64,000 nucleotides of DNA from positions 1 through 64,000 of the forward strand of contig NZ_JAVJSQ010000004.1 in the NCBI RefSeq assembly GCF_040219335.1. Reading direction: 5' to 3'. This DNA comes from Gimesia sp. (GTDB lineage: Bacteria; Planctomycetota; Planctomycetia; Planctomycetales; Planctomycetaceae). Each line of letters starts with the position of its first letter. The first letter of the stretch is position 1. The notes under the pieces are model-generated. The model was not told the DNA's origin, did not search any database, and saw only the letters and a list, made by a program, of their open reading frames with translations. Both the position numbers and the translations under genes were made by a program. Positions 52,026 to 55,922 of the stretch are shown in pieces.

Positions 52026-52072
52026 TCATCGTCTAACCTTAAAGAATATGATTTAGAGACGGAACTACGAAA

Positions 52073-52105
52073 ACAGCCGAGATGGTTTTCATCTCGGCTG
52101 TTTTT
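52073..52105 (+). terminator. Terminator of gap
   Basis: ACAGCCGAGATG and CATCTCGGCTGT form a 12-bp perfect stem with a five-base loop and a T5 run. About 48 bases after the stop codon. Confidence 0.9.
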
Positions 52106-52302
52106 CCAGAGTAATTCATCTACACACAAGGACAGGTGTTTCTACTTTCCACTAGACTATGATCCCTGAGATCGTCAAAATAGTCCGCTTATAAATAAAA
52201 GCAGTACCCCCATTCATAAAACTCGCAAGAAATCAAACTCTTGATGCGAACGATTCAGAGCTCTTGCTTTTGGCTTTGAGTTGTATATTATTCCTGAATT
52301 CT

Positions 52303-53007
52303 ATGATTGACTCGAATACCAAACACAAACTGTTATCAGCTGCACCGGTAATTGCTCCCTCGATGCTGAAGTGTGACTTCGGCAACCTCCATCGTGAGGT
52401 CGAGCTGCTGGATGCCGCTCAGGCGCCCGTACTCCACTGGGATGTCATGGATGGGCATTTTGTCCCTAACCTCTCCTACGGAGCCATGCTCATTGAGCGG
52501 GTCAGACCATTGACCAAGTCGTTTTTCGACGCCCACCTGATGATCAGCAATCCCGAAAAGTATGTAGATGACTACATTAAGGCTGGCTGCGATTCGATTA
52601 CCGTCCATATCGAAGCACTGCCGGAACCACAGGGGCTGCTGGATCGTCTCAAGGAGGCAGGGGTCTTACCCGGTCTGGCGATCAGCCCCCAGACACCACT
52701 GGAACGGATTGAACCGTATCTGGATGCCTGCGGACTGGTGCTGGTGATGAGCGTGGAACCTGGCTTTGGGGGGCAGTCCTTCATCGAAACCAGCCCCGAA
52801 CGAATCAGACAATTGAAATCAATGATCTCTCCGGAAACGATTCTCTCTGTGGATGGAGGCATTGATCCAGATACCATCGGCGCAGCAGCTCAGGCCGGTG
52901 CCAATTACTTCGTGGTCGGAAGCGCCATTTTTAATGAGCCCGATTACGCAACTGCTGTCAGCGATCTGGCCCGGATAGCCAGAAGCCGGACAGCTTCCTT
53001 AACATAA
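52303..53007 (+). CDS. rpe: Ribulose-phosphate 3-epimerase
   Basis: 234 residues from the ATG at 52303; an upstream alternative start adds 13 hydrophobic residues without family support. IAPSMLKCDFGNL starts the TIM barrel. HWDVMDGHFVPNLSYG carries the catalytic Asp and metal His, DAHLMI the phosphate and metal residues, and MSVEPGFGGQSF and VDGGI the remainder. Interconverts ribulose-5-phosphate and xylulose-5-phosphate. It is followed after 15 bases by the phosphatase homologue; rpe, this and accD read as one transcription unit. Confidence 0.95.
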   Translation: MIDSNTKHKLLSAAPVIAPSMLKCDFGNLHREVELLDAAQAPVLHWDVMDGHFVPNLSYGAMLIERVRPLTKSFFDAHLMISNPEKYVDDYIKAGCDSITVHIEALPEPQGLLDRLKEAGVLPGLAISPQTPLERIEPYLDACGLVLVMSVEPGFGGQSFIETSPERIRQLKSMISPETILSVDGGIDPDTIGAAAQAGANYFVVGSAIFNEPDYATAVSDLARIARSRTASLT

Positions 53008-53022
53008 AAGAGATTCAAAAAC

Positions 53023-53697
53023 ATGCCAACTGTGGTACTCATACGTCCTGGTTGTACTGACTTTGATAAAGATGAGCGAATTCAAGGTACCCTGGATCTT
53101 CCACTGAACGCAAAAGGGGAAGAACAGGTTCGAAATCTGATTCCCCAGCTGGAACAGGCGGGGATCGAAACCATCATCACTTCTTCATCAGAGCCCGCAC
53201 TGTCAACAGCCGAACAGCTGGGCGAAAACCTGGGCGTCCCGGTCAAGGAAAAGGAAGGCCTGAAAAACCTGAACCAGGGACTCTGGCAAGGCCTGGAATA
53301 CGAAGAAGTCCGTCGGAAGTACCCCAAATTACTCAAACAATGGGCCGAATCTCCCGAAACGGTCTGCCCGCCTGAAGGGGAACTCGCCTCGGAAGCGGTC
53401 AACAGGGTCCAGAAAACATTACAGAAATACCTGAAGAAGAAACAGAACTTCGCCATCGTGGCTTCAGAACCGCTGGCGACGATCATTTCCAGCCTCCTGC
53501 GGAACGAACAGAAAGAAAAAATTTGTTTTGAGCACGCCGGACGCTTCTGTCACAATGAAATGTTGGAAATTCTTGAGTCACCCCCTAAAAAAAGTGATTC
53601 AAAACAGGTAAATTTTGACGATCAATCAGAAAAGAGGGATTCCCAACAGGGTCAAAGCTGCCATACAGAAAAATGGCGCTACGAGGAGGCTAAGTAA
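53023..53697 (+). CDS. Histidine-phosphatase (phosphoglycerate-mutase) homologue lacking both catalytic His
   Basis: 224 residues. The fold is clear: [20 protein letters not shown], then [43 protein letters not shown] and a late [17 protein letters not shown]. The hallmark RHG at the start is RPG, and the second catalytic His (normally V-x-H-G near the end) is replaced by the Ser in VASEP. The Arg and the Glu-equivalent region are present. So it should be unable to form the phosphohistidine and is likely a binding or regulatory protein. The C-terminal ~40 residues are polar and lack family similarity. Between rpe and accD. Confidence 0.75.
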
Positions 53698-53698
53698 T

Positions 53699-54553
53699 AT
53701 GAGTTCTGCTCCCAAGTCAAACGTCGATTCAAAGCTCAGCCACACCACCCGCCCCAAGCGAGGGGTGCCGGAAGGACTCTGGCAACGCTGTCCTGCCTGT
53801 AACGCAACCGTGTTCTGCAAACAGGTCGATCAGGGGCTCGGCCTCTGCCCGGAATGCGATCACCACTTTTCGATCTCGGCTCACACCCGGATCCAGCAGC
53901 TGCTCGACCCGGACAGCTTTGAAGAATGGTATCCCGACATCACCGCAGGCGATCCGCTCGAGTTTGCGGACAAAAGCAAAACCTACAAAGAACGCCTGGT
54001 CGCGGAGCAGAAAAAAACCGGACTCAAAGATGCCTGCATCGTTGGCAAAGGCTACATGCGTGGTCGCCCGCTGGTCATCGGCATTACCGACTCATCCTTC
54101 ATCATGGGCAGCATGGGTTCCGTGGTCGGAGAAAAACTGACCCGCGCCATCGAACAGGCAACGGAACTCAAACTCCCGCTGATCATCATCAGTGGCTCCG
54201 GCGGGGGCGCCCGCATGCACGAAGGGATCTTCTCCCTGATGCAGATGGGAAAAGTTTCAGCAGCCCTGGGACGCTACCACGAAAAGGGGGGGCTGTTCAT
54301 TTCAGTTCTGACCAACCCCACCATGGGGGGAGTCGCCGCCAGTTTCGCCTCACTGGGTGACATTGTCGTCGCGGAACCCAAAGCCCTGGTCGGTTTCGCG
54401 GGACCGCGGGTAGTGGAAGCCACGATTAAAAGTTCGCTGCCCGAAGGCTTCCAGACCAGTGAATTTCTCCTGGAGCATGGCTTTGTCGATCGCATCATTC
54501 CCCGTCCCCGACTCCGCTCGGAACTGGCACGACTGATTGACTATTGCGTCTGA
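53699..54553 (+). CDS. accD: Acetyl-CoA carboxylase carboxyltransferase subunit beta
   Basis: 284 residues from the ATG with GAGGAGG nine bases upstream, inside the end of the preceding gene; the start overlaps that stop region. The N-terminal zinc ribbon is [11 protein letters not shown] and LCPECDHHF. The carboxyltransferase core includes [37 protein letters not shown] and [12 protein letters not shown]. Forms the transferase half with AccA, which is not in this window, giving malonyl-CoA for fatty-acid synthesis. Confidence 0.96.
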
Positions 54554-54758
54554 CTCCCCCAAAGCCTCAAAACGAATCCCTGAGACCATCCCGACCATCG
54601 TTCGCATCAGTCAACGCTGATTGGAAACAGTCGATTTCAGGGGACCGCTTTGCGTCTCGTCAGGCTGGCAATTATACTGGAAGTGTTGGGCCGGTTAACT
54701 TCTTCTGAGCCCGGGATGAAACCTGGTCCTGAATTCACTCTCTGCCCCTGGTGAATGC

Positions 54759-55922
54759 ATGAACTTTTTAAAGCGACTCTTTTCCAAAGAAGCACGTGTT
54801 CCCCGTGTGAACATCAAGCAACGTTTTGAGCTCATCGGGCGCGTGGGCCAGGGCAGCATGTCAAAGGTCTGGCGGGCCCGCGATTACAATTCCGGCAAAA
54901 CCGTTTCGCTTAAAATTCTGGACAAAGTCAAAACGCAGGAACTGGAAGCCCGCTTTGTCGGACTGGATAAACCCAAAGAGGGGGAGATCGCAGTCCAGTT
55001 CAATCACCCGCACATCGTCAAGACTTACGAACATGGCCTGACCACCGATCAGGAACAGTTCCTCGTCATGGAATTCATCGAAGGCTACAGTCTCAGCTTT
55101 CTGGTGGAAGCCCAGAACGAGGACATGAAAACCAACTGCCTCAAATACATGATCCAGCTGGGCGAAGCGATCCAGTATTTTCATGATGAAGGCTGGATTC
55201 ACCGCGACATCTGCCCGCGCAATATCATGGTCAGCAACGATCACGAACTCAAGCTGATCGATTTCGGACTGGTCGTCCCCAATACGCCTCCGTTTCTGCA
55301 GCCCGGCAACCGCACCGGTACCGCCGCTTACATGGCCCCCGAGCTCATCAAACGCCAGAAGACCAGCCAGAAAATAGATATCTTCTCTTACGCTGTGACC
55401 TGCTACGAGATGCTGACCAAACGGCTTCCCTGGAAAGCAGCCGAAACAATGGAAGCGGTCCTGCAACATATCAATTCACCACCGGAGCACATTCAAAACC
55501 TGCTCCCAGATCTCGATCCCCGTATTGCCGATGCGATCATGAAGGGGCTGGAGCTCTACCCGCAAGACCGCTGGCAGACGATCAACGAGATGCTTGAACC
55601 GTTCAAACAGGCGTATAAAGAACAGCAGCGTTCCGCTCCCGCGAAAACTCCGGTGCCTCACCAGGAGACAGTAGAATCGGCCCGTCGAAAACAGCAACCA
55701 GATCCCGCTCAGCCCCGGCGCAGCGAACAGGCGCGCCCCAAGTTGAGAAAAAAGAAACAGCCCGGTTCCAGCAGACGCTCCACGGAATCGAAATCAGAGT
55801 CTAATGAAGCAGGGCAGGCACCTGCGAAAAAATCACCCAGTGCCTCACGGAAACCGGAACGCCCGACTCAGAAAAAACCGGCACCCCGATCAAAACCCGA
55901 TAAAAAAGATGAAAGTCACTGA
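54759..55922 (+). CDS. Soluble Ser/Thr protein kinase with basic C-terminal tail
   Basis: 387 residues. The kinase domain covers ~20-285: GRVGQGSMSKVWRA (glycine loop), SLKILDK (ATP-binding Lys), GWIHRDICPRNIMV (catalytic loop), LIDFGLV (DFG), GTAAYMAPEL (APE) and RWQTINEM near the end. A Lys/Arg/Pro/Ser-rich tail of ~100 residues follows with no membrane helix or receptor domain. The short N-terminus lacks an export signal, so it is cytosolic. The tail may bind nucleic acid or an acidic partner. The helicase gene begins 78 bases downstream on the same strand. Confidence 0.9.
   Translation: MNFLKRLFSKEARVPRVNIKQRFELIGRVGQGSMSKVWRARDYNSGKTVSLKILDKVKTQELEARFVGLDKPKEGEIAVQFNHPHIVKTYEHGLTTDQEQFLVMEFIEGYSLSFLVEAQNEDMKTNCLKYMIQLGEAIQYFHDEGWIHRDICPRNIMVSNDHELKLIDFGLVVPNTPPFLQPGNRTGTAAYMAPELIKRQKTSQKIDIFSYAVTCYEMLTKRLPWKAAETMEAVLQHINSPPEHIQNLLPDLDPRIADAIMKGLELYPQDRWQTINEMLEPFKQAYKEQQRSAPAKTPVPHQETVESARRKQQPDPAQPRRSEQARPKLRKKKQPGSSRRSTESKSESNEAGQAPAKKSPSASRKPERPTQKKPAPRSKPDKKDESH

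Follow-up and report, generated by a model that had tools for sequence, protein, structure and literature searches.

The catalytic residues of the histidine phosphatase superfamily are the His and Arg of the RHG motif, the Arg of SSxxxRA, the acid of LxE, and the late His of V-x-H. To our knowledge, pseudoenzymes have been studied mostly among eukaryotic kinases and phosphatases. One of these is PTPRU, a eukaryotic pseudophosphatase whose phosphatase domain is reported to be inactive (PMC7320164). PTPRU is an animal receptor and belongs to a different phosphatase superfamily from the protein described here, which we named HPX. With regard to acetyl-CoA carboxylase (ACC), two proteins are relevant: YqhY, whose gene adjoins acc genes, and PII, which differs from HPX both in its fold and in the ACC subunit concerned. 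YqhY, a small conserved Bacillus subtilis protein of the Asp23 family, has been proposed to limit or control ACC (PMC5437119), and the signalling protein PII (GlnB) is reported to bind the BCCP subunit of ACC (PMC5080355). YqhY and HPX belong to unrelated families, as HPX has no Asp23 match, and their likeness is confined to the proposed mode of action. No description of HPX was found in the accessible text of the open-access literature on histidine phosphatase pseudoenzymes or on planctomycete accD, ACC, or Rpe. The terms accD, phosphoglycerate, acetyl-CoA carboxylase, and fatty acid were absent from the main text of a paper on the essential genes of Planctopirus limnophila (PMC10632474).

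The window analysed here is a 64,000-nucleotide stretch of Gimesia sp. DNA. In this window, HPX lies between rpe and accD, a location given in the initial annotation and borne out by domain matches to both neighbours (Table 1). Kinship with the phosphoglycerate-mutase/histidine phosphatase family, which that annotation had also claimed, was upheld by the match to PF00300 (histidine phosphatase superfamily branch 1), which covered residues 4–169 and exceeded the gathering score (cut-off 21.7 bits). PF00300 was the sole domain matched in a search at E values up to 1, in which the Asp23 domain was not found. The best NCBIfam model was that of alpha-ribazole phosphatase CobC (TIGR03162, 99.7 bits), whose equivalog cut-off of 162.9 was not reached; the phosphoserine phosphatase PspA model (NF045917) gave 82.8 bits, and HPX scored under the cut-off of every NCBIfam model listed. 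The closest solved structures were 4ij6 and 4ij5 (phosphoserine phosphatase 1; E about 2e-15), and an hhalign profile alignment to 11 planctomycete histidine phosphatases gave a probability of 99.95 and an E value of 4e-38 over 166 columns, stopping at residue 165. HPX thus belongs by sequence to the same family as PF00300, CobC, and PspA (4ij5, 4ij6), but it differs from the PF00300 enzymes in lacking the RHG His, the second pocket Arg, the catalytic acid, and the late His. Five Gimesia-like sequences yielded a structure model of poor quality (mean pLDDT of 50.7), and Foldseek with this model placed 4ij6 first (E 2.4e-5, probability 1.00, TM 0.40–0.44, the last a low value). Because of the poor model, we relied on sequence alone. 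The genome holds a third stretch matching PF00300 (L003, G000:C4:319229-319435), which covered profile positions 1–68 only, in a frame of 158 residues.

Table 1. Features of the rpe–HPX–accD locus (positions within the window)
Feature	Position	Strand	Basis
rpe, ribulose-phosphate 3-epimerase, upstream of HPX	52303..53007	+	PF00834 E 2.2e-66
HPX, pseudo-histidine-phosphatase gene	53023..53697	+	ORF ATG to TAA, 224 aa; PF00300 110.8 bits
RPG (residues 8-10) where RHG expected	53044..53052	+	sequence; aligned to RHG
Pro58 where pocket Arg (SSxxxRA) expected	53194..53196	+	Arg 0/151 orthologue rows, 12/12 comparison set
Asn82 where catalytic acid (LxE) expected	53266..53268	+	Asn 142/143 in class; outside-class HPX-like rows have Glu in 7/8
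Ser148-Glu149-Pro150 where late His and flank expected	53464..53472	+	His 0/151 at 148; Pro150 143/143 in class
HPX codons 181-210, depressed synonymous divergence	53563..53652	+	pooled pS 0.33 vs 0.71 in codons 1-165, ten Gimesia loci
accD, acetyl-CoA carboxylase carboxyltransferase beta, downstream of HPX	53699..54553	+	PF01039 E 2.6e-16; TIGR00515 371.1 bits
Ser/Thr protein kinase gene after accD	54759..55922	+	PF00069 E 1.5e-46

The orthologue rows (n = 151; 149 distinct) comprised 103 from the family to which Gimesia belongs, 40 from other families of the class, and 8 from outside the class. The 103 family rows, 101 of them distinct, were those of the window and 102 further loci, one of which (L005) encodes a protein identical to that of the window, while L007 and L036 represent one contig. 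Two copies of the window locus (L002 and L004) were excluded before counting, and two orthologue fragments from the family (G106:C838 and G099:C451) were left out of the rows. HPX was matched in 111 of 120 family genomes at E values up to 0.001, paralogues included, and in 101 of 120 with 66 bits or more, two of these being fragments. The remainder of the class, 147 genomes, was searched with a profile (A1) built from 38 family rows. HPX was detected at orthologue scores in 91 of these genomes, spanning 13 families; all 91 reached at least 167 bits, and the group below them scored no higher than 104. Of these 91 orthologues, 40 were read, drawn from all 13 families. The rows from outside the class were eight HPX-like genes beside accD, from six families. 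There, the scores of ordinary RH-motif histidine phosphatases (85–119 bits) and of HPX-like genes (109–143 bits) overlapped among L217–L233 and do not separate HPX-like genes from live paralogues, so the 20 loci outside the class (L214–L233) were grouped by their neighbours instead: the 8 loci where rpe or accD was matched in the vicinity were taken as HPX-like, and the 12 without such a match as the comparison set. This split coincided with that by the RH motif in all 20 loci, with 8 lacking and 12 having His9; one of the 12 comparison proteins reads RHC instead of RHG.

Four catalytic positions are replaced in the window protein: the first His by Pro9, the pocket Arg by Pro58, the acid by Asn82, and the second His by Ser148. 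Of the RHG motif, the Arg is retained as Arg8. Replacement of the two histidines (RPG for RHG, and VASEP for the late His) had been described in the initial annotation and was confirmed by hhalign, which set Pro9 and Ser148 at these positions; the same alignment set Pro58 opposite the SSxxxRA Arg and Asn82 opposite the LxE acid, two further losses that the annotation had missed. VASEP corresponds to residues 146–150 and stands in place of VxH, where Ser148, not Glu149, faces the late His. A late His displaced by one column was ruled out, as columns 147–149 were devoid of His in 151 of 151 rows. Local mutation and sequencing error were also ruled out by the presence of the replacements in all 151 orthologue rows.

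None of the HPX rows from the family (0/103), the class (0/40), or outside the class (0/8) had His9, Arg58, or His148, each of which was present in the entire comparison set (12/12). The initial annotation had named RHG in relatives as the sign of a merely local change; His9 occurred in 0 of 151 orthologue rows versus 12 of 12 comparison proteins. The acid followed another pattern: Glu82 was absent from the family (0/103) and class (0/40) and present in 7 of 8 rows outside the class and in 9 of 12 comparison proteins, the remaining three having Asp. Asn82 was found in 102 of 103 family and 40 of 40 class rows, and in neither the outside-class rows (0/8) nor the comparison set (0/12). Pro150 (103/103, 40/40, 5/8, and 0/12 in the family, class, outside-class, and comparison rows, respectively) and Glu or Asp at 149 (103/103, 35/40, 0/8, and 3/12, respectively) were likewise typical of the class. 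Arg8 was present in 128 of 151 HPX rows (89/103, 33/40, and 6/8, respectively) and in 12 of 12 comparison proteins, and Glu120 in 151 of 151 HPX rows. Arg19 was steadier in HPX (103/103, 40/40, and 8/8, respectively; 151/151 in total) than in the comparison set (6/12), which, together with its near-fixed neighbours, places the surroundings of the old site among the most constant parts of the protein. The near-fixed motifs at or near the old site were Pro9, Asn82, Glu/Asp149-Pro150, Arg19, GLWQG, and CPPxGE; within the class, GLW, Pro117, Gly119-Glu120, and Pro150 were near-fixed.

In the tree, the HPX rows and the comparison set were separated by a branch with support of 100/99, and the rows from outside the class formed long branches rather than one group. 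Since His9, Arg58, and His148 are missing in all HPX rows, and rows outside the class still carry the acid where those inside it have Asn, we infer that both histidines and the second Arg were lost early and that the acid was lost in a later, second step within the class. The long, ungrouped outer branches and a tree that does not root the process mean that separate decays outside the class may have occurred instead of one shared loss.

The retained gene is under purifying selection. For the two Gimesia pairs with moderate dS (L006 and L034), dN/dS (NG86) in codons 1–165 was 0.030 and 0.048, respectively, which ruled out a decaying pseudogene; in the other four Gimesia pairs dS was saturated or nearly so. 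Constraint was much weaker in codons 166–224 (0.16–0.23). Amino-acid identity followed the order rpe < HPX < accD in all six Gimesia comparisons (for L006, 93.8% in HPX versus 88.8% in rpe). Over 43 wider taxa, HPX had the longest tree (20.5, versus 13.2 for rpe, 8.8 for accD, and 6.3 for GAPDH), indicating fast evolution outside its fixed motifs. The partial branch-rate correlations of HPX were 0.415 with AccD, 0.332 with Rpe, and -0.042 with GAPDH, and in the set including the kinase they were 0.429 with the kinase, the highest, 0.339 with AccD, and 0.281 with Rpe. Pairs without HPX reached the same level (0.376 for Rpe-AccD and 0.392 for Rpe-GAPDH), and covariation of branch rates was thus uninformative as a means of identifying a partner. 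At synonymous sites, divergence was low in codons 166–224 pooled (permutation p of 5e-5). The sequence GACGATCA within HPX was unchanged in all 17 sequences aligned, although these include near-identical ones, and codons 181–210 (Table 1) are a possible cis control element of accD residing in the upstream gene. Lowered synonymous divergence was also observed at 52933-53112, that is, at the end of rpe and in the first 30 codons of HPX (pS of 0.50 and 0.44, respectively).

The position of HPX is conserved. The rpe gene was directly upstream in 97 of 101 testable family loci, 35 of 40 class loci, and 6 of 8 loci outside the class, and accD was directly downstream in 98 of 99, 33 of 40, and 8 of 8, respectively; for the loci outside the class, adjacency follows in part from the selection itself, as those eight rows were chosen for having such a neighbour. 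All 142 family and class loci tested had rpe or accD, or both, beside HPX. In the window, the accD start codon lies one base past the HPX stop codon, with GAGGAG inside the 3' end of HPX, and accA is encoded at another place in the genome (G000:C4:492427). No promoter-like or terminator-like site was seen on the + strand from the end of rpe up to accD; a scan of 52040-54800 gave counts near those of shuffled sequence (2 versus 1.6 promoter-like and 4 versus 3.0 terminator-like sites), and an Rfam search gave no match. The pairing of accD with the downstream kinase gene might mean phosphorylation control of ACC.

HPX is dispensable in some lineages, in which accD is kept and HPX is gone. We sought accD in 30 genomes without a full HPX orthologue and found it in 24, reading the six others as assembly gaps. 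None of these 24 genomes showed HPX or another histidine phosphatase within the 1.5 kb flanking accD on each side. At three of these loci (L268, L271, and L273, from two genomes of genus g26 and from G075), rpe adjoins accD with no HPX, which looks like clean loss of the gene. In three class families (f3, f6, and f8), no match fell within the orthologue score range. Among the best 30 accD loci of the phylum search, 5 had an HPX-like gene beside accD, and 12 had a nearby rpe match but no HPX-like gene. Closeness of rpe and accD therefore exists without HPX, which weakens the claim that HPX causes it.

The loss of catalytic residues is shared by relatives under purifying selection, which is the mark of a pseudoenzyme. 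We regard HPX as probably an old, selected pseudoenzyme of the histidine phosphatase superfamily with a remodelled pocket, acting by binding, likeliest on ACC. Of the parts of this reading, classical histidine-phosphatase catalysis is very likely absent, and action by binding is likely; the identification of AccD/ACC as the target is tentative, and Rpe is a rather doubtful one. Binding or regulation is suggested because the catalytic residues were lost, yet the gene was kept between the same two metabolic genes in relatives. The old pocket would now bind a metabolite or a peptide of a partner protein. The likeliest target would be the carboxyltransferase of ACC (AccD with AccA), so that HPX would tune how much carbon enters fatty-acid synthesis, as reported for YqhY in Bacillus subtilis. 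ACC is favoured by the analogy with YqhY and by the presence of accD after HPX in nearly every family locus. From the linkage, the initial annotation had suggested a regulator or scaffold for carbon flow. The dead site and the linkage to rpe and accD proved to be conserved, which makes regulation or scaffolding plausible; the role itself does not follow from them, since the linkage may reflect mere co-transcription, as genes of one operon can stay linked although their products never touch, rpe lies near accD in loci without HPX, and accD is kept where HPX is gone.

Loci retaining a single neighbour bear on the choice of target. If HPX regulated or scaffolded Rpe, on the pentose phosphate side, accD would be an operon passenger downstream. 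The seven of 40 class loci with rpe but not accD beside HPX, and the short gap between the rpe match and HPX (median of 38 bases in the family), speak for such an arrangement, which we nevertheless consider unlikely, given that five of the 40 class loci kept accD without rpe and that all four of the 101 family loci without rpe upstream had accD. The occurrence of HPX with either gene alone singles out neither as the partner, and AccD and Rpe are not told apart by family linkage (98/99 versus 97/101) or by the branch-rate correlations. The kinase gene raises another option, in which HPX would be a phosphoprotein reader or a partner of the kinase, the two forming a kinase and pseudophosphatase pair on ACC. 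Among loci with HPX, the kinase gene comes after accD in 46 of 64 testable cases in the family and 9 of 33 in the class, and HPX-kinase was the top branch-rate correlation; but it also comes after accD in 21 of 24 loci lacking HPX, and in none of the 7 testable HPX-like loci from beyond the class, and thus belongs with accD rather than with HPX. As the phosphate pocket has moreover lost two His and one Arg, we give this option a slim chance.

The remodelled site itself could also be read as that of a new enzyme, in which Arg8, Arg19, Asn82, Glu120, and Glu149 run another, non-phosphohistidine reaction. The old site and its vicinity do contain near-fixed polar residues, including Glu120 and Arg19 in all HPX rows, Asn82, and Glu/Asp149 (138/143 in the class). 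Prolines at 9, 58 (in the family), and 150 suggest packing over catalysis, however, and with Arg8 absent from 23 of 151 rows, Asn82 and Glu/Asp149 both missing outside the class, and no candidate reaction suggesting itself, a new activity seems improbable. A duller alternative is that the old site is kept for fold stability only. Least probable of all, in our estimation, is that the HPX protein itself does little and that the frame persists mainly for cis signals and translational coupling to accD. The one-base spacing, the internal GAGGAG, and the constrained synonymous sites in codons 181–210 are compatible with this, but amino-acid constraint peaks in the fold core, far from accD, the gap between HPX and the accD match varies in the family from overlap to 537 bases, and seven of 40 class loci have HPX with no adjacent accD.

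Under the favoured reading of HPX as a binding pseudoenzyme, a more specific and rather speculative version is that HPX is a planctomycete regulator of ACC, possibly also of Rpe, whose RHG site became a sensor pocket for a pentose, a triose, or an acyl-CoA before the class diversified, coupling pentose-phosphate flux to malonyl-CoA synthesis. The label "histidine phosphatase family protein" would mislead for genes at the rpe–accD position. HPX would represent a bacterial pseudoenzyme in which the loss of catalytic residues is deep, the residues replacing them are near-fixed, and the place of the gene is conserved; this combination, with loss of the acid confined to the class, makes the change from enzyme to binder testable step by step. 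If HPX acts on ACC, it would constitute a planctomycete control point of fatty-acid synthesis, of which no description was found in the literature searched.
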